A DNA stretch of 64,000 nt from Sodaliphilus pleomorphus (GTDB lineage: Bacteria > Bacteroidota > Bacteroidia > Bacteroidales > Muribaculaceae). Below the pieces are notes generated by a model. That model did no database searches, had not been told where the DNA came from, and saw only the letters and a list, made by a program, of their open reading frames with translations. A program made the translations under genes and the position numbers. Where the stretch lies: positions 2,871,001 through 2,935,000 of the forward strand of contig NZ_CP045696.1 of assembly GCF_009676955.1 (NCBI RefSeq). The letters are read 5' to 3'. Numbering within the stretch: the stretch's first letter is position 1; each line of letters opens with the position of its first letter. This document shows positions 10,724 to 19,485 of the stretch, piece after piece.

Positions 10724-11392
10724 ATGAAATCTTATAGCAACATCTCCGAAATATTGGCTTTCCTGAGCCAGCTGCAGGCCAACAACAACCGCCCGTGGTT
10801 CATGCAGCACAAGGCTCAGTACGACGCCTTGCGGCAAGCCTGGGAACACGACATGGAGCGCCTCATCGAGCTCATGGCACAGGTCGACGACCAGGTGTGC
10901 GGCTTGAATGTGAAAAACTGCGTGTACCGCATCTACCGCGACGTGCGGTTCAGCAACGACAAGTCGCCCTACAAGAATTACTTCTCGGGCGTGCTGGGCA
11001 AGGGCGGGCGACACACCAAGTTGTCGTGCTACTACGTGCACTTCCAGCCTGGCAACATCATCTTGGGCGGCGGCATCTGGTGCCCCGACAGGCCTGTGCT
11101 CGACAAGCTGCGCAGCCTCATCGATGCCGAACCCGATGAATTTCTCAAGGCCGTGCAGCCCGCTCTCGATGCCGGCTACCAGTGGGACAGCGACTCGCTC
11201 AAGCGAGTGCCCAAGGGGTTTGACGCCGCTCACCCCATGGCCCGCTTCTTGAAGATGAAAGAGTACTTGCTCTTGAAGCGCTGCCCAGCCAGCTACCTCG
11301 ATGTCGACGACTGGGTGGCCCGGGTGGCCGCCTCCTTGCCCGTGCTCAAGCCCATGCACGATTTCCTCAACTACGTCTTCGACGACGATTGA
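10724..11392 (+). CDS. DUF2461 (TIGR02453) family protein
   Basis: A 222-residue cytoplasmic protein of normal family length. It has the N-terminal LSQLQANNNRPWFMQHKAQY segment, a RIYRDVRFSNDKSPYKN core and the GGGIWCPDRPVLDKLR motif characteristic of the family. Biochemical function is unknown for the family as a whole. The ATG at 10724 follows directly on the last 92-bp repeat, so the repeat array supplies its entire upstream region and may influence its expression. No partner gene; the next feature is tRNA-Ser. Confidence 0.88.
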   Translation: MKSYSNISEILAFLSQLQANNNRPWFMQHKAQYDALRQAWEHDMERLIELMAQVDDQVCGLNVKNCVYRIYRDVRFSNDKSPYKNYFSGVLGKGGRHTKLSCYYVHFQPGNIILGGGIWCPDRPVLDKLRSLIDAEPDEFLKAVQPALDAGYQWDSDSLKRVPKGFDAAHPMARFLKMKEYLLLKRCPASYLDVDDWVARVAASLPVLKPMHDFLNYVFDDD

Positions 11393-11482
11393 CGGCCACT
11401 TGCATCTGCCCAGGCAGCTGCTGCCGCGGCATGACACCGTTTTTTTCTTCTCAAAAAAGTTGCAAAAACAACAACAAGTGCT

Positions 11483-11490
11483 TACCTTTG
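11483..11490 (+). promoter_or_regulatory. -7 element for tRNA-Ser
   Basis: TACCTTTG matches TAnnTTTG, about 70 bases before the mature tRNA, on the tRNA strand. Confidence 0.55.
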
Positions 11491-11561
11491 CACCCATCAA
11501 TCACTGCAACAAGTGTAAGGCTCATGCCTGGCGCGAGTTGATGACCGGGGTGATTGATACT

Positions 11562-11646
11562 GGAGAGATGGCGGAGTGGTCGATCGCGGCGGTCTTGAAA
11601 ACCGTTGAGGGTAACACCTCCGGGGGTTCGAATCCCTCTCTCTCCG
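11562..11646 (+). tRNA. tRNA-Ser (anticodon UGA)
   Basis: An 85-base class II tRNA. The acceptor stem GGAGAGA pairs with TCTCTCC, with G as discriminator. The anticodon stem GCGGT/ACCGT encloses loop CTTGAAA with anticodon TGA at 11596-11598. A variable arm (TTGAGGGTAACACCTCC) typical of tRNA-Ser precedes the T arm GGGGG-TTCGAAT-CCCTC. CCA is not encoded. The sequence immediately 3' turns AT-rich and leads into the restriction/defence genes, so this tRNA is a plausible integration site, although no integrase is visible. Confidence 0.97.
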
Positions 11647-11739
11647 CAATATCACTTGATTATCAGTGATTTACAAGATTTACACCCAATTTTACACCCA
11701 AAAATGTAAAGCTGGGTGTTTTCTGTTTAAGTGATATGA

Positions 11740-12423
11740 TTATAAATTTTCACCTATGATTTGGGTATTTGTACGAGCACTCAACACAAAATCATTCTCT
11801 ATTTCTTTTATTTGATCAATTGAAAAACCCTTCCAAGATCGAGTTTCTTTGGGAGTTTCGATTAAATATGGATGACTTTCTCCATGATCATAATCAAAAT
11901 CAACATCAACATCGAAATCCCAATCGACAGCATACCCCTTTAATTCTTCTTCCTTTGGCACAATAAATATAATATGTTCTCGAGGAATATCATATAAATT
12001 CAGTTCTTTCATTGGAATACGCCATTCTCTCAACCATGAATAATCTCTTTTATGAATATCAAGTTCTAGGAATCTCCATCGAATAGATTCATCCAAGAGA
12101 TTAATTTCATCAGCTTGTCCATATATAACAGGTCTTGCACCTTTATTTTCATAAAGCCAATCTCTGGATATTCCTATTCCATATGGGGAAAACATGGCTT
12201 TACGCCCCATTTCTTTAAAACTGTCGAAATATTTTAGATTAGATAGATAACAGGTAATAGGAGCATCTGTAAAACATATATAATCATGTTCCATAGAACG
12301 GAGAGTGCCTGTAGTTAGAATCTCGTGAAGAATAGCAGGTGCATTATCATCCCTTAAATAATTAAAGAGATAAGGGGATAAGTCATGCCTTATTGTTCGT
12401 ATATTGTCGCTTGGATTACTCAT
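11740..12423 (-). CDS. AbiGi-like abortive-infection family protein (tentative)
   Basis: A 227-residue cytoplasmic protein, last of a four-gene minus-strand operon (27 bases after the AlbA_2 gene). Residues 45-60 read YICFTDAPITCYLSN, then FSPYGIGISRDWLYENKGARP near 95-115, followed by REWRIPM and IIFIVPKEEEL. The FTDAP / YGIGISRDW / GARPVIY order matches my memory of the family annotated as AbiGi antitoxin of abortive phage resistance; some similar proteins are filed under DUF2971. It is AT-rich compared with the chromosome around it. The defence context supports a phage-related role, but the molecular activity is unknown. Confidence 0.6.
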   Translation of the reverse strand: MSNPSDNIRTIRHDLSPYLFNYLRDDNAPAILHEILTTGTLRSMEHDYICFTDAPITCYLSNLKYFDSFKEMGRKAMFSPYGIGISRDWLYENKGARPVIYGQADEINLLDESIRWRFLELDIHKRDYSWLREWRIPMKELNLYDIPREHIIFIVPKEEELKGYAVDWDFDVDVDFDYDHGESHPYLIETPKETRSWKGFSIDQIKEIENDFVLSARTNTQIIGENL

Positions 12424-12450
12424 GTTTGGATATTTTTAATTTGTAACAGG

Positions 12451-13434
12451 TTAATTCTTCTCAATTTTTTTGAAGGAATCTACTTCAAGTATAGGATAGT
12501 CTATTCTTTTGTCTCGTCCTAATAATGTGTTTATTTTATCCCTTCCTTCAACATATCGTTGCTCAGAAGGAATAAACGCAACATCACAGGAACCACCTGG
12601 GTAGAATAAAATCATATCAATGATAAGACCATCGAGAAACTCTTCTTCATGGTCTTTATCAATATGAAGAACGAAATGACCCATTTCCAAAGTCTCTCCC
12701 CCAAAGATAGGCTCTTGATATCTGCATGATATTTTCAATCTTTCAGCATCCAGAGCTGTATATGAGAAATTTTCATTTGAAGGAAATGAGAACTCACAGT
12801 GAAGAGATATTTTGTTGAAATAAACATTCAATTTATACACCTCACATACAGAATGACCAACATTCTGAATTTTAGCCATAAATGTATATTCCACTTTGTT
12901 GCTATAAGGGTCATTCTTTGTTTTGTATAACCCGCAACCGTCTATCTCCAAAGGAGTATTGCTTTGTCTGTTCATGACATCCCGGATCTCATAGTCCTCC
13001 ATGACTTCGACAGTTGCATTTCTTCTGATATAGTACAAATGGTTTATTTTGTTTTGGTGTGCAGTTATTCCTTTGGGTACATGTAAGATAAACACATTGC
13101 CACCTTCTTGAGGTAAGACGGAAATTTCGATATTGTTTATCTTTGGAGTTATGTTTGACGAAAGAAGTTGTGATAACTGATCCTTTGTCATTTCTGTCGA
13201 TGGAATAGGCGTAATTAACTCTGGAAGAGAAAGACCGTTAGAAACATTTTTCTCAGCAAGCCCATAGATGAAGATACCTCCATTAGCATTTGCCATAGCA
13301 CTAATATCCTTTGCCAATTCTTCTTTCCACTTTGGATTCGCCTTAGCAAAAGAACGTTTGTATTCTAACTCGGTAGATTCCTCCACAGAATTGTCTATCA
13401 AAAATTGTATGTCCGCAATGCTTTCTATAGTCAT
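12451..13434 (-). CDS. AlbA_2 / Schlafen-type putative DNA-binding protein
   Basis: A 327-residue protein. The start at 13434 (MTIESIADIQF) is preferred over an upstream in-frame ATG at 13518 that lies inside the previous gene; this leaves a 16-base gap. Residues about 5-130 form an AlbA_2 domain: ESTELEYKRSF, then ISAMANANGGIFIYGL and a later LYYIRRNATVEVM. This fold occurs in Schlafen nucleases and in regulators with ATPase or HTH parts. Residues 140-327 are beta-rich without a motif I recognise and contain no helix-turn-helix that I can see. It is third in the restriction operon, which suggests an accessory nucleic-acid-binding or RNase role in defence. Confidence 0.78.
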   Translation of the reverse strand: MTIESIADIQFLIDNSVEESTELEYKRSFAKANPKWKEELAKDISAMANANGGIFIYGLAEKNVSNGLSLPELITPIPSTEMTKDQLSQLLSSNITPKINNIEISVLPQEGGNVFILHVPKGITAHQNKINHLYYIRRNATVEVMEDYEIRDVMNRQSNTPLEIDGCGLYKTKNDPYSNKVEYTFMAKIQNVGHSVCEVYKLNVYFNKISLHCEFSFPSNENFSYTALDAERLKISCRYQEPIFGGETLEMGHFVLHIDKDHEEEFLDGLIIDMILFYPGGSCDVAFIPSEQRYVEGRDKINTLLGRDKRIDYPILEVDSFKKIEKN

Positions 13435-13450
13435 ACGTCTTACGTTTGTG

Positions 13451-14530
13451 TTAGAAAAGTCCCGATGGAACAAGCCCCAATGAATTAATAGACTCATAGG
13501 CATTGGAAAGCGAATCAAACACCTTCAACACATCGTTGTAGTCCCAGAACTTGAGTTCGTCACGTATTGCCTTCAAAGAAGATGCTTCCTTCTTAATCTT
13601 CTCCAATTGCTTGGCGTCAGAAACGGCAACAATGCCTTGTACCGACGGGTTGTTCTTTGCCTTCATCAGATTTAGCAACAGGCTGTCTATACTGCCGCTG
13701 GTTTGAACCTCAAACACGTATGTTATTCTTCCCATATTACCAACTGAAACTTCCCAGATGGCATCAACAACTGCACCATCAGCGACTTTCTTCTCAACTT
13801 CTGCCTTGAAGCCAAGGAAAGAACCTATGTCCCTGATTCTGTCTCTTACATCATTATGGACAAAAGCCTTCTGCTTCTCTGTTTCTTTTTCTGGTTTCTC
13901 TTCCACAGGAACAGCTGTATCTGCAGGCTCTATCTGCAGGTCTTTCCAAATGAAGTAGTCTAAGGCAAGTAGGTCTTCGATTTCGCTGACACCTTGCTTC
14001 TTTGCTGACTCCACAAGTTCACGACCAACCTTAGAGAGATAAGCGTATTTCTTACCATCAAGAGCAGAATTATATTTAGGAACTTTAGAAATACCCAAAG
14101 CTATGAAACCTGTAAGCGATTTCTTGTTCCAAAGAATGAACTCATTTGGATTGAACTTATTCAGCAACTCGCTGATGATAGCTGGCCCCAAGCCCTTAAT
14201 CTTCTCACGGAACTCATCCCATCGGTTTTCGATGGATGCTTTCCCGTAGAACAGATTAACAAGTTGCTTACGAATCAAGTCTATGCCATTGCTTTCAATG
14301 ACATTATCGAGGTAATACTTCTTATTTCCCCACATGCGCATAGCCCACAGAGGTGCTATAAGATTGAAGAACTCCTCCTCTGACAGGTTCTGCAATCGTT
14401 CTTTTGTGTACGATTGCATCTCTTTACACATGGCGTGACGCTCATTGAATTCAGCTTCTACTTCCGCCTTATTGCTGTTTGACCATTTCTTGTAGTTGAA
14501 AAGGGCTGTTGAATATAATTTTTCGTTCAT
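13451..14530 (-). CDS. HhH protein with PD-(D/E)XK-like C-terminal domain (unknown)
   Basis: A 359-residue protein I cannot assign to a named family. Residues about 105-150 contain IKGLGPAIISELLNKFNP followed by EFILWNKKSLTGFIALG, which looks like the helix-hairpin-helix and following helix of DNA-glycosylase folds. A Pro/Glu-rich linker (VPVEEKPEKETEKQKA) at about 205-222 separates the C-terminal part. There, VVDAIWEV followed about ten residues later by YVFEVQTSG resembles the D...E-x-Q core of PD-(D/E)XK nucleases or nuclease-like DNA binders. It follows the RM gene by 13 bases in the same operon, so a role in restriction or DNA recognition is likely. Confidence 0.65.
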   Translation of the reverse strand: MNEKLYSTALFNYKKWSNSNKAEVEAEFNERHAMCKEMQSYTKERLQNLSEEEFFNLIAPLWAMRMWGNKKYYLDNVIESNGIDLIRKQLVNLFYGKASIENRWDEFREKIKGLGPAIISELLNKFNPNEFILWNKKSLTGFIALGISKVPKYNSALDGKKYAYLSKVGRELVESAKKQGVSEIEDLLALDYFIWKDLQIEPADTAVPVEEKPEKETEKQKAFVHNDVRDRIRDIGSFLGFKAEVEKKVADGAVVDAIWEVSVGNMGRITYVFEVQTSGSIDSLLLNLMKAKNNPSVQGIVAVSDAKQLEKIKKEASSLKAIRDELKFWDYNDVLKVFDSLSNAYESINSLGLVPSGLF

Positions 14531-14543
14531 GATTATAATGCTA

Positions 14544-17500
14544 TTACTTTAGATATTTATCGAGGATAGATTGTATGAGTTTACCAATTTCTTTTTGTTT
14601 ATCATCCACCTTTTTACATTCATCTACTATCTTTTTTTGAATGTCCGGAGAAGGTATGGGAATGTCAAAATTTGGAATAATCTTTTTATCTCCGCGTGGC
14701 ATCTTTACACCCTTTTTACCTACCATCATGTAGTCAAAGAACGTATCTGTTGACATAATGACTTTTAGGTAGTCATTCAATACTTCCTTAGGCTTAGAGT
14801 TCCTAAAAACAAGGACATCTTTTGAACAACCACCGTCACGGTCAGCCATCCAAATCTTCTTCAGATATGGACGAATATTTGAAACAAGAATATCACCTTT
14901 TTTAAATGCTGTGATAGAATCTATGTTTGGAACATCTTTGTAGGCAACAACCCCCGCACGATTTTGCAGCATATTCTCCGTAGATATGTAGTCGGAAACG
15001 GATATACTCGACATCTTAATTGAGGTAGTTACATAAGGAGCAACTACTGACAATTTTTCTGTAGATGTTCCTTCTTTACACTCGATTTTGGGATAAACAA
15101 GAATTGGAGTGGTTTTGATTGCCTTGTCAAAATCCACTCGCTTAAAATCAAGCATATCCTCAAGTAGGTAGGAATCAACATACACTCCTATCTCCTTTGG
15201 CACATCCACATCTTCACCAAGATAATTCTTGCGGATAAGGGTATTTATCTTTTCTTCATTGAATAGATTATGTGGATCGAAAAGAGGAGTCTCGATCTGT
15301 TGTATTCCTTTGTTGGCAGCAATTTCATTGTCGTCATCTTCCACGACAGCACCAAGGTATTTTATACCCTCGCTACCCTTGCGACTGCTCCATTCATAGC
15401 CAAGGAATTTCTTTGTTTCAGATGTCTTAGTAGGAGATTTTACCACAATTACCGACTGTGGATTGCTTTCGCAGAGCATAAAGTAATAGAGCTTATCTTT
15501 CTCCACGTTTCGGATAGAGTCAAAAATATGCTTCGCCAATTCTGCATCCTTCATAGTTTGGGTATAACGAGCAGTTACTCTCTTCTTCTTGATATGTTCT
15601 GCCACTGTGTTATTAGAGAACTTAGCTTTATAAGCAGCGAAAATCTCATGCTTCATCAAATCCTCAGAAGGATTGCCATTAAGTAGAGTAAGATACTCAT
15701 CGTATGGCACGCCTATATGCTGGGCATAACGCTCAATGGCATCCGCATCTTCATAACGATGATCCTGACCGTGATTGTTTGAGAACCATGCTTCCACACG
15801 ATTGCGATAATGTGTTGCTAACTCTGGCTCGGATTTCTTTCGACGAAGGAACAGTACCACAGTATTGGTGCCAGTCTTGCCAAATGTTCCACTACCAAAC
15901 TCAGCAACAGCCACAAAATCGAAATATTGTAATAAGATTTCACGCGTCTTGACATAGATATTACTGCTATTAGACAAGATGCTTGAAGGAAGAATAATTG
16001 CTGCCACTCCCTCTGGTGCCAGCAATTGCTTTGCACGCTCAATGAAGAATGTCTCAATACTATTGTTTGTTTCTAATTGCTTGCTGTCAACATCAGCACT
16101 CAGCACATAGGCATCACGTTGTTCTTTGCTAAGTGTAGCAAGGAAGCCTGTTACACTATATGGAGGGTTGGCTACAAGCACCTTAAAGTCGCCATCCTTA
16201 ATTGTATCATGAGGTACAAGTGCATCACCATAGACAATCTGGATTCCATCCTGGCCATACATGAATGATGATACTTTAGACACTTTTGAGAGGCGATACT
16301 CTTTTTCAATGCCATAGATTTGCTTGTAATAGTCGGGAAGGGATTGGACACCCTTGTATTGCTCCACAAATGGCTTTATCTGTGAAGCATACTCATTGAG
16401 GAAGTGACCTGCGCCACAAGCATAGTCAATGGCTTTTGGAATATCGGTATTGTCGCGTATAATCTGCTCTAAAGGCAAGGAACTGACCATAAAACGAGTT
16501 ATAGGTGTAGGAGTAAAGAACTGGCCTTCGTTTTGCTTTACGCCTTGGTCGAGGAAACCCTCAAACAAGTCTCCGAGGAACTGATTTTGTTGCTCAGTTT
16601 TAAGGCGCATGTCTTGAAGCATCTCTACCATTGCTTTGAGGATGACAGCATTCTGAACAAAGAGTTGCTTGTTATGCACATCAAGAAAACCAAAATCGCT
16701 ATTGCTATAGAACTTCAACTGACGGAAATATTCCAAGATAGTGTCCTTGATGGCATCAGGGTCATTCTTCTGCATACGGAATGCATTCTCAATACTTGCA
16801 TTATCGATATAGGTAACATCCTCTCCCAAATAGTCCTTCATGCCTATTTGGTAGAGTTTCTGCAATCGGTCTTGAAAACTATAATAGTCATCATAGGCTG
16901 CACCTTTCCATAGGAACTGCAAATCCTTTGGATTACGCACTTCATCCACAATCTTCACCAAGAATAGATTAACCAGTTTGTCGAAAGCATTCTCGTGGCT
17001 GGCAACATTGTATTGGCGAAGTGTCTGGGCGAACTGATGATATTTGCGTTGTATGTCCTGACCATCAACAATAACAAGGTCGTCAATGGTCAGTTTTTTC
17101 TTAGTCACGCCAAAAGCGGGAACCTCATCTACTTCAAAAGCTCCATTGGTGGCAAAATCCTTGCCATAAGTCTCAGACCATACTTTGAAGAAGTCGTCTC
17201 TTGTACCATTATCTGCACTTACCTTTTCAAAACTAAGCAGTTGGGGGGTAGATTCAAGGTACTCCTTGTTGTCGGTCATCGTAATCAGACGATAATTGCA
17301 ACGAGGTTCACCATCCACGAAATCGGATGCATAAAGAACAAGATATTGTGCTTGGCGATAAGTGTTATAATAGTTGAACAACTGCCCACCATCCTGTAGT
17401 GTCTTTTTCCAAGCTTTGCTAAACTCATCATCTTCTTTTCCGTCCATTGTCTTACACTCAATAAGCATATATGGACGCTTATCGTTATCGCGAATCAGGA

Positions 17501-17816
17501 TGTCACAATAGAAATGAGAATCTTCTCTTCCACCTGGAGTTTTAGGCTCTAACACTATATTCTCAGGTTTGTATCCTTGGGCCAATAATCCAACAACACA
17601 CTCCAAAACAACAAAGTTCTCATTGGCAGAGAAGTTCTTTGTTGTGTCTCGGTCTGCTTCTATACCTTCTGGATAAATAATCTTCTCATTTGTGAAATCA
17701 ACAGCAACAGTACAGTTGGTGTTGTTAAAATGCATTGCCATCTTGTCTTGCACAGTATCAGATTGCTGAAAGCCAAGACAAGTAAGAAGATTTCTGAGAT
17801 TATCTTTTGTAATCAT
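14544..17816 (-). CDS. Single-chain type IIG-like restriction-modification-specificity enzyme
   Basis: A 1090-residue fusion. Residues 90-125 carry the nuclease site: D105 in CDILIRD and E120-C-K122 in MLIECK, the D...ExK of HsdR N-terminal-type PD-(D/E)XK domains. Residues 405-660 are an N6-adenine methylase of the HsdM kind: QGQFFTP-like segment EGQFFTPTPITR at 430-441, SAM-binding YACGAGHF at 465-472, and catalytic NPPY at 550-553. Residues about 900-1090 resemble one HsdS target-recognition half, ending in the coiled-coil IPSPDIQKKIVDECKKVDDKQ type. All active-site residues are present, so the enzyme looks intact. It leads the four-gene operon and lies 22 bases after a decayed XRE regulator. 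Confidence 0.88.
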   Translation of the reverse strand: MITKDNLRNLLTCLGFQQSDTVQDKMAMHFNNTNCTVAVDFTNEKIIYPEGIEADRDTTKNFSANENFVVLECVVGLLAQGYKPENIVLEPKTPGGREDSHFYCDILIRDNDKRPYMLIECKTMDGKEDDEFSKAWKKTLQDGGQLFNYYNTYRQAQYLVLYASDFVDGEPRCNYRLITMTDNKEYLESTPQLLSFEKVSADNGTRDDFFKVWSETYGKDFATNGAFEVDEVPAFGVTKKKLTIDDLVIVDGQDIQRKYHQFAQTLRQYNVASHENAFDKLVNLFLVKIVDEVRNPKDLQFLWKGAAYDDYYSFQDRLQKLYQIGMKDYLGEDVTYIDNASIENAFRMQKNDPDAIKDTILEYFRQLKFYSNSDFGFLDVHNKQLFVQNAVILKAMVEMLQDMRLKTEQQNQFLGDLFEGFLDQGVKQNEGQFFTPTPITRFMVSSLPLEQIIRDNTDIPKAIDYACGAGHFLNEYASQIKPFVEQYKGVQSLPDYYKQIYGIEKEYRLSKVSKVSSFMYGQDGIQIVYGDALVPHDTIKDGDFKVLVANPPYSVTGFLATLSKEQRDAYVLSADVDSKQLETNNSIETFFIERAKQLLAPEGVAAIILPSSILSNSSNIYVKTREILLQYFDFVAVAEFGSGTFGKTGTNTVVLFLRRKKSEPELATHYRNRVEAWFSNNHGQDHRYEDADAIERYAQHIGVPYDEYLTLLNGNPSEDLMKHEIFAAYKAKFSNNTVAEHIKKKRVTARYTQTMKDAELAKHIFDSIRNVEKDKLYYFMLCESNPQSVIVVKSPTKTSETKKFLGYEWSSRKGSEGIKYLGAVVEDDDNEIAANKGIQQIETPLFDPHNLFNEEKINTLIRKNYLGEDVDVPKEIGVYVDSYLLEDMLDFKRVDFDKAIKTTPILVYPKIECKEGTSTEKLSVVAPYVTTSIKMSSISVSDYISTENMLQNRAGVVAYKDVPNIDSITAFKKGDILVSNIRPYLKKIWMADRDGGCSKDVLVFRNSKPKEVLNDYLKVIMSTDTFFDYMMVGKKGVKMPRGDKKIIPNFDIPIPSPDIQKKIVDECKKVDDKQKEIGKLIQSILDKYLK

Positions 17817-17838
17817 ATATGGAAAGAATTATCGATTG

Positions 17839-18029
17839 TTACTTTGTTGAGTTTAGAAGATCCTTCACGTCAACGTCAAGGGGCTTTGCGATTTTATCTT
17901 AAGTTTGCAAGTCTGGTAATACTATTACTGCACCATTTGCTTACAGTACAAGGTGTTTTGCCAACCTCTCCAGCAAGCCATTTGCCAGTTTTCCCTTTCT
18001 CAACGAGAACTACTTTTATACGATTCAGA
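17839..18029 (-). pseudogene. Decayed XRE-family HTH regulator upstream of the RM operon
   Basis: Reading the minus strand gives NRIKVVLVEKGKTGKWLAGE, then VGKTPCTVSKWCSNS, the helix-turn-helix of small Cro/CI-type regulators, and in another frame KIAKPLDVDVKDLLNSTK, their usual C-terminus. Between them the frame is lost and a TTA leucine codon appears as TAA. The expected ATG before NRIKVV is CTG. The gene therefore carries at least three lesions. It lies between the operon promoter and the RM gene, in the position of a controller protein, and is probably no longer functional. Confidence 0.8.
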
Positions 18030-18063
18030 TTTCCATGATGCTATAATTGATTGTAATTTGGTG

Positions 18064-18071
18064 CAAATATA
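18064..18071 (-). promoter_or_regulatory. -7 element for the XRE remnant / RM operon
   Basis: Minus strand reads TATATTTG (TAnnTTTG), 34 bases before the position of the lost XRE start codon. It is probably still the promoter for the RM operon, whose first intact gene starts about 250 bases downstream. Confidence 0.55.
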
Positions 18072-18079
18072 ATAAAATT

Positions 18080-18562
18080 CTATGAAAAAGGAGGCTCTTG
18101 CTTGTTCACCCACTCGGGTATGTTCTTTACTTTGGTAGTACGGTCGGGGCGTCCGTGTCGGTTGTATTTCATTTTGTGCCTGCAGTGCGAGGCCAGCAAT
18201 CCGCTTTCATCATCCCTTATATGTCGATAAATTAGTTCATGGGATATGGGCTTCCCCCTGCGTCTCATGTCGGCAGAGATCTGTTCGGGAGACCAATCCT
18301 CTTCCTTGAGCAGCTCAAGGGCTTCCCAAACGATAGCCGGATCCTTTGCTCGGTTGGAAGTAGACCTTTTCCTGCGTGCCATTGCCATATCGTGGGCCTT
18401 GGACCATAGGTAGTTGCCCTTTTCTGTCGAGTTGCGCTTTATTTCGCGGCTGAGTGTTGATTGACTGCACCCCACTATCGAGGCGATAACTTTTCTCGGA
18501 GTCCTTCTTTGCAGTAAGGCGAAAATTTGCGACCTTTGCTGCGAGGTTAATTGATAATACAT
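18080..18562 (-). mobile_element. Truncated IS30-family transposase (N-terminal half)
   Basis: The minus strand encodes 160 residues from the ATG at 18562: YYQLTSQQRSQIFALLQR, an HTH (VIASIVGCSQSTLSREIKRN), WSPEQISADMRR and HELIYRHIRDD, the N-terminal DNA-binding half of IS30 transposases. Full-length members are about 320 residues with a DDE domain; here the frame ends at NIPEWVNKQEPPFS before any catalytic residue. The element is broken only about ten bases from the RM operon promoter, so its insertion and deletion formed that boundary. It is not capable of transposing itself. Confidence 0.85.
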
Positions 18563-18590
18563 ATAGCAATACAAAGTTGGTTAATCTCGG

Positions 18591-18711: not shown

Positions 18712-18992
18712 TGAACGACAAAAATGTGTGTAGGGCCATTCAGAACGAAATTTTGCACTTCGTTATTGAATATGGGTCTTCAGGGTCATTGGCATTTTTC
18801 CAATACTGCTTTTATACGAGGAATAACAAAACGTAATATCGGGGTACAATCGGAAAATCAATAATCTCTCTATTTTTAAGTGGACTCATTATTGCATTAT
18901 ATAAATTAGGGTGACGAGCGCAACGTCACTTACAACAAGGTTGCTTCTATGCGATAGTTGCTGTGGTTTGTCGTCTGAGCAAAGTGGCACGC

Positions 18993-19125
18993 ATGGGCAT
19001 GTATAACCGTGCCGCCCAGTTCTCGCCCTGTCGCCGATCTCACTGGCTGCGAGAAGGCTATTGGGGAGGCACAGAAGAAGCACGTGGCGGGGGTGAAGAG
19101 GCGCATTGCGCCGGTGGAGCTGTGA
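18993..19125 (+). pseudogene. Frameshifted small ORF, copy 1 (RAAQFSP...LTG motif)
   Basis: The start MGMYNRAAQFSP continues, after a one-base shift at about 19029, as VADLTGCEKAIGEAQKKH and ends RRIAPVEL with a TGA. RAAQFSPFAALTGYEKAI is the consensus I know from short YolD-like proteins that accompany Y-family polymerases. The reading frame is broken, so this copy should not make the complete protein unless ribosomes shift. About 43 residues if restored. Confidence 0.55.
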
Positions 19126-19230
19126 GAACTAAAAGAGCTAAACAATCTTAATGGTAGAGTTTGTAACTTGCACTGTATCAGCAATTATGCGATAGTTGCT
19201 GTGGTTTGTCGTTTGAGCAAAGTGGCACGC

Positions 19231-19363
19231 ATGAGCAGGTATAACCGTGCTGCCCAGTTCTCGCCTTGTCGCCGACCTCACTGGCAGCGAGAAGGACATT
19301 GGGGAAGCACAGAAGAAGCACGTGGCGGGGTTGAAGAGGCGAATTGCGCCGGTGGAGTTGTGA
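19231..19363 (+). pseudogene. Frameshifted small ORF, copy 2 (RAAQFSP...LTG motif)
   Basis: The second copy of the duplicated ORF: MSRYNRAAQFSP, then after the same one-base shift VADLTGSEKDIGEAQKKH and RRIAPVEL. The length (133 bases) and lesion match copy 1 exactly, so the frameshift predates the duplication or is tolerated. Substitutions between the copies show they have diverged for some time. Confidence 0.55.
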
Positions 19364-19485
19364 GAACGAAAAGAGCTAAACAATCTTAATGGTAGGGTTT
19401 GTAACTTGCACTGTATCAGCAATGGTTACCTCGGGGTAAGTGTCTTACTTTCAAGTGCCTTCTTGCAGGAATTAGAAACAGTAGG

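Follow-up and report, generated by a model that had tools for sequence, protein, structure and literature searches.

The four proteins of the array

The 64,000-nucleotide stretch of Sodaliphilus pleomorphus DNA analysed here (the window, whose coordinates are used throughout) contains an array of four open reading frames (ORFs) which run on the minus strand from 17816 down to 11740 and are separated by intergenic gaps of 13, 16 and 27 nucleotides. In the order of the minus strand, gene 1 encodes a restriction-modification (RM) enzyme, gene 2 an HhH protein, gene 3 an AlbA_2 protein and gene 4 a distant relative of AbiGi (Table 1). A first-pass annotation had proposed that the four work together as one dedicated defence set; the common strand and the gaps which it gave agree with the ORF coordinates, while the set itself is not supported by the comparison with other genomes reported below. 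Purifying selection acts on all four genes, with ratios of nonsynonymous to synonymous divergence (dN/dS) between 0.04 and 0.15 against relatives: gene 1 (residues 1-900) has 0.067, gene 2 0.04-0.05, gene 3 0.12-0.15 and gene 4 0.10-0.14. Hence, the array is unlikely to be a chance arrangement. The loci and genomes compared are labelled by L and G numbers.

Table 1. Features of the array and of its flanks.
Feature	Coordinates	Strand	Remarks
Promoter-like -7 box (Bacteroidales type), TATATTTG	18064..18071	-	precedes the regulator remnant; a TTTG -33 box is missing at the usual distance
Broken XRE-type regulator gene	17854..18079	-	similarity crosses a frame change, with stops
Gene 1, single-chain RM enzyme, 1090 aa	14544..17816	-	nuclease-like at the N-terminus; N6 methylase; a single Methylase_S (specificity) domain
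Gene 2, HhH protein, 359 aa	13451..14530	-	conserved nuclease-like C-terminus; unnamed RM-linked family
Gene 3, AlbA_2 (Schlafen-type) protein, 327 aa	12451..13434	-	PF04326 E 6e-17
Gene 4, distant AbiGi relative, 227 aa	11740..12423	-	family-level weak AbiGi matches
tRNA-Ser(TGA)	11562..11647	+	at the far end of the array; also next to the AlbA_2/AbiGi-like genes in G059

In gene 1, the motifs D105, E120-x-K122, YACGAGHF (465) and NPPY (550) are all found at the residues where they had been announced. Pfam recognises N6_Mtase (PF02384, E 3e-25), Eco57I and Methylase_S (E 6e-7), the last of which bears out the HsdS-like part of the first description, and the type IIG model of PADLOC (PDLC03624) matches residues 1-1085 with 1264 bits. 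The nuclease part is assigned from its motif and from an HSDR_N_2 match (E 2e-5, 24.8 bits) which lies just below the cut-off of 25. Since a single chain combines a predicted nuclease with an N6 methylase and a specificity part, gene 1 classes by domain content as a type IIG RM enzyme. It differs from its type IIG relatives in having one Methylase_S domain, where the relatives in L016 and L126, and also the separate specificity (S) gene of L012, have two. As a half-specificity enzyme, the product of gene 1 might dimerise on a palindromic site.

Gene 2 by itself gives in Pfam nothing but an HHH_5 match below the cut-off (E 0.004). The proposal that its HhH part is glycosylase-like was a fair lead, as became visible through the family: 17 of 44 members match the OGG-like glycosylase PF21790 (best E 4e-6), the protein of the window not being one of them. 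A PF21790 search in 21 relatives gave no match and recovered no control either, and is therefore uninformative. The N-terminal part contains an HhH-like stretch, K112-G-x-G-P-A. Residues invariant in all 41 aligned members are, in the first half, W67-G-N-K70, E121 and N135 and, on the C-terminal side, H225, E246, D256, W259, N265, G267, Y271, E274-V-Q276, D282, S283 and N287. Here the pattern D256...E274-x-Q276 suggests a nuclease of the PD-(D/E)XK type, with ExQ in place of ExK; BglII is an enzyme with ExQ. HhH-GPD enzymes have a catalytic Asp, whose position we take to be that of N135. As this residue is Asn throughout the family, base excision may be absent, and we set aside on this ground the idea of a hydrolytic glycosylase. 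No credible match to the HhH family was found in the PDB by sequence. Among the curated libraries, PADLOC has no match for genes 2-4 and NCBIfam none near its cut-off, and the best values obtained with the whole HhH family, each from a single member, are E 0.003 (PADLOC) and E 6e-4 (NCBIfam). The HhH family has no clear match in the copies of Pfam, NCBIfam and PADLOC used, and is thus an unnamed family; nor did these three libraries connect the array as a whole with any named system; the combination was not known as one to the first-pass annotation either.

The AlbA_2 domain announced for gene 3 is well above its threshold (62.7 bits, cut-off 25.3). The length of the protein is counted from the ATG at 13434, the longest ORF opening further upstream at TTG 13518. 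Its acidic residues E19-x4-E/D24 are present in 7 of the 8 aligned rows which cover the site, and E61 in 8 of 9. The catalytic positions of Schlafen RNases are taken here from Slfn13, whose third acidic residue is Asp; the pattern of gene 3, with positions 19, 24 and 61 largely kept, resembles it and may be called Schlafen-like. AlbA_2 relatives occur in 44 of the 393 genomes of the order, those above 50% identity being confined to the genome of the window and to G059, and none was found in viral contigs.

Gene 4 itself has no match in Pfam, NCBIfam or PADLOC. Its designation as AbiGi-like held at the level of the family, in which 8 of 25 members match PF10899 weakly (best E 4e-4), and not for the protein of the window, which does not match this model; gene 4 would accordingly be a distant relative of AbiGi. 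A PF10899 search of its own genome gave no match and recovered no control either, and the PDB has no match by sequence for the gene 4 family. Genes of this family occur in 3 of 393 genomes of the order and at 25 loci in viral contigs; in seven of these viral loci, inspected by eye, the flanking genes looked like phage genes, structural or other. A relative 33% identical lies in the same genome as the window (L125 6835-7554), another on a plasmid record of Parabacteroides distasonis (L139 8001-8720), after tra genes and among conjugative transposon genes, and in L127 a relative precedes an ORF read by eye as AlbA_2-like.

RM neighbours of the HhH family

A scan of genome contigs yielded 47 HhH loci, in Bacteroidota, Verrucomicrobiota, Pseudomonadota, Thermodesulfobacteriota and others; a further bacterium and three archaea come from plasmid records. 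Within the order the gene is present in 4 of 393 genomes and within the genus in 3 of 41, each count including one weak match; none was found in viral contigs, in phage records or in E. coli genomes (at the DNA level).

At 27 of the 47 loci, co-directional RM genes detected with phmmer seeds lie within 6 kb of the HhH gene. By our assignment they are type I-like (10 loci), type III-like (4), IIG-like (3), type II with HNH (2), a methylase with or without S gene (3) or a single RM gene (5), the matches of L036 (E 2e-5) and L044 (E 2e-7) in this last group being weak. An S-like ORF was seen by eye in two further HhH loci, L047 and L057. Pfam confirms RM proteins in L012, L013, L016, L022, L028, L039, L043, L045 and L053, those of L045 and L022 being of type I and those of L028 and L043 of type III. 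In 18 of the 27 loci an RM gene lies at most 260 nucleotides from the HhH gene; L032 is left out of this count, since it is a DUF1016-like gene that stands next to HhH there, at 15 nucleotides. As a control, RM seeds matched in 1 of 34 loci around relatives of gene 4 and AlbA_2, with the qualification that 25 of these 34 are viral contigs, that the control loci are not matched to the HhH loci, and that the seeds were drawn from the window and from 10 of the same HhH loci, which favours the latter. Genes of the N6_Mtase class are found at 19 of the 47 loci; a density near one such gene per megabase (a hand sum of 383 in 118 Bacteroidota genomes) predicts about 0.6 for the 641,677 bases concerned. 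Within 9 kb of HhH in the 47 loci, ORFs of at least 150 aa showed no C5-methylase motif.

The partner is rarely an enzyme of the gene 1 kind: a IIG enzyme of this sort stands at 4 of 48 HhH loci when the window is included (the window, L012, L015 and L016). We compared the numbers of changes of partner label on a tree of 41 HhH members, a quick tree without bootstrap in which three rows are long-branched, with the means obtained after shuffling the labels. They amount to 8 against 9.0 for type I, 4 against 3.9 for type III and 6 against 6.6 for solo genes. The changes for types I and III being close to the shuffled means, we concluded that the HhH genes have swapped partners. The four IIG rows do cluster, with 2 changes against 3.9, a value reached in 1 of 500 shuffles. 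In L016, a Prevotellaceae locus, a Fic-domain gene (11102-12220) follows HhH.

Other contexts of the downstream genes, and the flanks of the array

The locus L013, from an uncultured Bacteroidales (RUG12436), has the order XRE, D12 methylase, HNH nuclease, N6_N4 methylase, HhH, AlbA_2, gene 4. Its last three proteins are 93% (HhH), 94% (AlbA_2) and 84% (gene 4) identical to those of the window, and the DNA is 88.9% identical from 14531, one base before the start codon of HhH, to 11743, at the end of gene 4. Upstream of HhH, no DNA similarity was found between the RM genes of L013 and those of the window.

A second boundary is given by G059, from another family of the order, whose DNA similarity to the window starts at 13444, just before AlbA_2, and runs through gene 4 into the tRNA-Ser(TGA). 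Its AlbA_2 gene is split over two contig ends (L123 9186-9278 and L124 1-95) which share 8 nucleotides beside inverted-repeat ends, and looks like a gene interrupted by an insertion with an apparent 8-nucleotide target duplication. Upstream on the second contig stand an XRE gene and the genes for a methylase of the N6_N4 class, for an Eco57I/N6_Mtase protein and for a protein of 1048 aa which N6_Mtase matches in part. In G059, AlbA_2 and gene 4 thus probably follow a third type of RM system, the adjacency of the two contigs being inferred. No HhH relative was found in this genome.

Other loci carry partial sets. L012, from Parabacteroides distasonis, has XRE, a DUF1016-like gene (our label), an enzyme 93% identical to gene 1 in residues 1-901, an S gene separate from it, and HhH, its contig ending 111 nucleotides past HhH. 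In L015 and L016, an enzyme 37-42% identical to gene 1 is found with HhH and without AlbA_2 and gene 4, and L014, a short contig, has HhH without these two genes. Relatives of gene 1 are present in 173 of the 393 genomes of the order, mostly through the methylase or specificity part; a strong relative (E < 1e-100) is present in 21, of which a single one, the genome of the window, has an HhH gene.

Synonymous divergence (dS) from L013 is 0.905 for HhH, 0.209 for AlbA_2 and 0.542 for gene 4. Since it differs between neighbours, the genes of the cassette must recombine partly apart. Against L012 the values are similar, 0.534 for the enzyme and 0.487 for HhH.

Upstream of gene 1, the regulator remnant shows in its two frames 55% and 67% identity to the XRE gene of L012, which is intact; the RM operons of L012, L013 and L124 each begin with an intact XRE ORF. 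We searched the minus strand between 11700 and 19600 for TAnnTTTG, which we take to be the Bacteroidales -7 consensus, and found one box ahead of the array (18071) and four others inside genes 1, 2 and 3, while no site with the full pattern TTTG-spacer-TAnnTTTG was found in this interval. Of the single promoter which had been proposed, there remains a single box ahead of the array. Just upstream of the remnant lies a truncated IS30-like transposase ORF (18080-18574, 164 aa; NCBIfam IS30 E 4e-16, below cut-off), and further upstream a tandem pair of 238-nucleotide repeats, 94% alike, at 18948-19423.

At the other end, the stretch between gene 4 and tRNA-Ser(TGA) (11562-11740), with its TTTACACCC repeats, is conserved in G059 (L123 7441-7620) and is a possible integration site. 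The tRNA-Ser is common to both genomes in which AlbA_2 and gene 4 stand at an identified tRNA. We abandoned an attempt to fix the boundaries of an island by means of DUF2461 loci and direct repeats: no tRNA-Ser was found near the DUF2461 gene in 29 loci of the genus (about 2.3-3.7 kb each), and the direct repeats around the array include no convincing pair of attachment (att) sites.

Interpretation of the array

A fixed four-gene system is not supported. Since L013 has the same three genes behind an unrelated RM system, the downstream genes are not tied to gene 1. For the most part, their relatives stand away from enzymes of this type, which is the outcome that the first-pass annotation had named as refuting its proposal. 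What is left of the first description is a tight array, in which an RM enzyme precedes nuclease-like, AlbA_2 and AbiGi-like genes, together with a strong link between gene 2 and RM genes in general; that the four are one set is not supported. Our best explanation, in which we place about as much belief as doubt, is that the array is an XRE-headed RM operon whose 3' end carries exchangeable accessory genes. Each of their products would act beside the RM enzyme and not as its subunit. The RM enzyme would be the first line, cutting unmethylated phage DNA. The HhH protein would be an auxiliary DNA nuclease, whose HhH domain would read abnormal, modified or damaged DNA, and would cover the phages which escape or survive restriction, whatever the type of the RM system. 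The AlbA_2 protein, as a Schlafen-type RNase, and the AbiGi-like protein would provide a second, abortive layer. Restriction backed by an abortive response, as the first-pass annotation had it, seems a reasonable inference from the domains.

This layering of restriction, nuclease and abortive functions is read by analogy with BREX operons, for which a survey describes auxiliary enzymes of the PD-(D/E)XK type and Schlafen RNases which serve as backup effectors (PMC12839542). What they share with the array is the plan of a defence operon to which a nuclease (putative in the array) and a member of the Schlafen family are added. The differences are that no BREX core is found among the Pfam, NCBIfam and PADLOC matches of the array proteins, that the BREX Schlafen proteins, as described there, carry a histidine kinase part and a winged helix-turn-helix (wHTH), from which the C-terminus of gene 3 differs, and that the term HhH was not found in that text. 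Brig1 and Brig3, which another paper describes as derived from uracil glycosylases (PMC13160076), are close in idea, as DNA glycosylase-type proteins directed against modified phage DNA; the protein of the array differs from them in its HhH part, its nuclease-like C-terminus and its frequent association with RM genes. In the literature on such gene combinations, covered mostly at the level of titles and with subscription journals outside its scope, we recognised no description of the HhH family.

More tentatively, and with doubt prevailing over belief, the HhH family may be a general partner of RM systems: an auxiliary nuclease of bacteria and archaea for types I, II, IIG and III, covering what those miss, with abortive modules behind it in the Bacteroidales.

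Several observations weigh against our best explanation, besides the composition of the control loci and of the seeds. No RM gene is seen at 18 to 20 of the 47 HhH loci, and L018, L019, L020, L033, L035 and L049 still show none with at least 8 kb of upstream flank. An RM partner is thus not obligatory for HhH, although, many of the loci being short, not all of these misses are true absences. HhH, AlbA_2 and gene 4 are found together only in the window and in L013. As AlbA_2 is interrupted in G059 and the regulator of gene 1 is broken in the window, parts of the array may be decaying. As to the HhH protein, PF21790 matches 3 of 10 members taken singly, all below the cut-off (16-21 bits against 27), a profile comparison (hhalign) of the HhH half with an endonuclease III set gave no match (probability 1.8), and position 135 is Asn in all members.

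The main competing explanation, which we consider unlikely but serious, is that unrelated defence genes have gathered by hitchhiking at the tRNA-Ser site, under one promoter, each acting alone. The relatives of gene 4 which stand singly in viral contigs and in a conjugative element, the HhH loci without visible RM genes, the unequal dS of neighbours against L013, which shows that the genes recombine apart, and the tRNA-Ser common to the two genomes all speak for it. What it does not easily account for is the link between HhH and RM genes, which is co-directional, often within 260 nucleotides, and extends over several phyla and RM types; the crowding of genes in islands would not readily give as much.

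We find it improbable that the HhH protein is a factor of repair or self-protection for hosts with adenine methylases, and not a weapon, in the manner of Vsr, which accompanies Dcm. Its HhH part with weak OGG-like similarity would suit such a role, as would RM partners of the N6/N4 type in surroundings free of the C5-methylase motif; against it, the gene is rare and patchy in the order and in the genus, unlike a host repair gene, and its partners include types IIG, I, II and III. Least probable is the reading closest to the first-pass annotation, in which the four genes make up a single dedicated system and the IIG enzyme is its sensor or trigger: the tight spacing would suit it, and the like dS of enzyme and HhH against L012 (0.53 and 0.49) indicates that these two may have travelled together, but the same downstream genes stand behind other RM types, the HhH gene is missing from 20 of the 21 genomes in which the enzyme has a strong relative, and L015 and L016 pair enzyme and HhH without the other two.

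Coming back to the RM operon with exchangeable accessory genes, we must note that the window and L013 amount to a swap experiment made by nature, in which two unrelated RM systems precede the same three genes, so that the dependence of these genes on the RM type becomes directly testable. The most interesting part of the array is the HhH family. RM systems tend to be regarded as self-sufficient; a family which recurs beside different RM types, swaps its partners and has no name in the library copies used would be an accessory component so far missing from the picture of the most common defence of bacteria.

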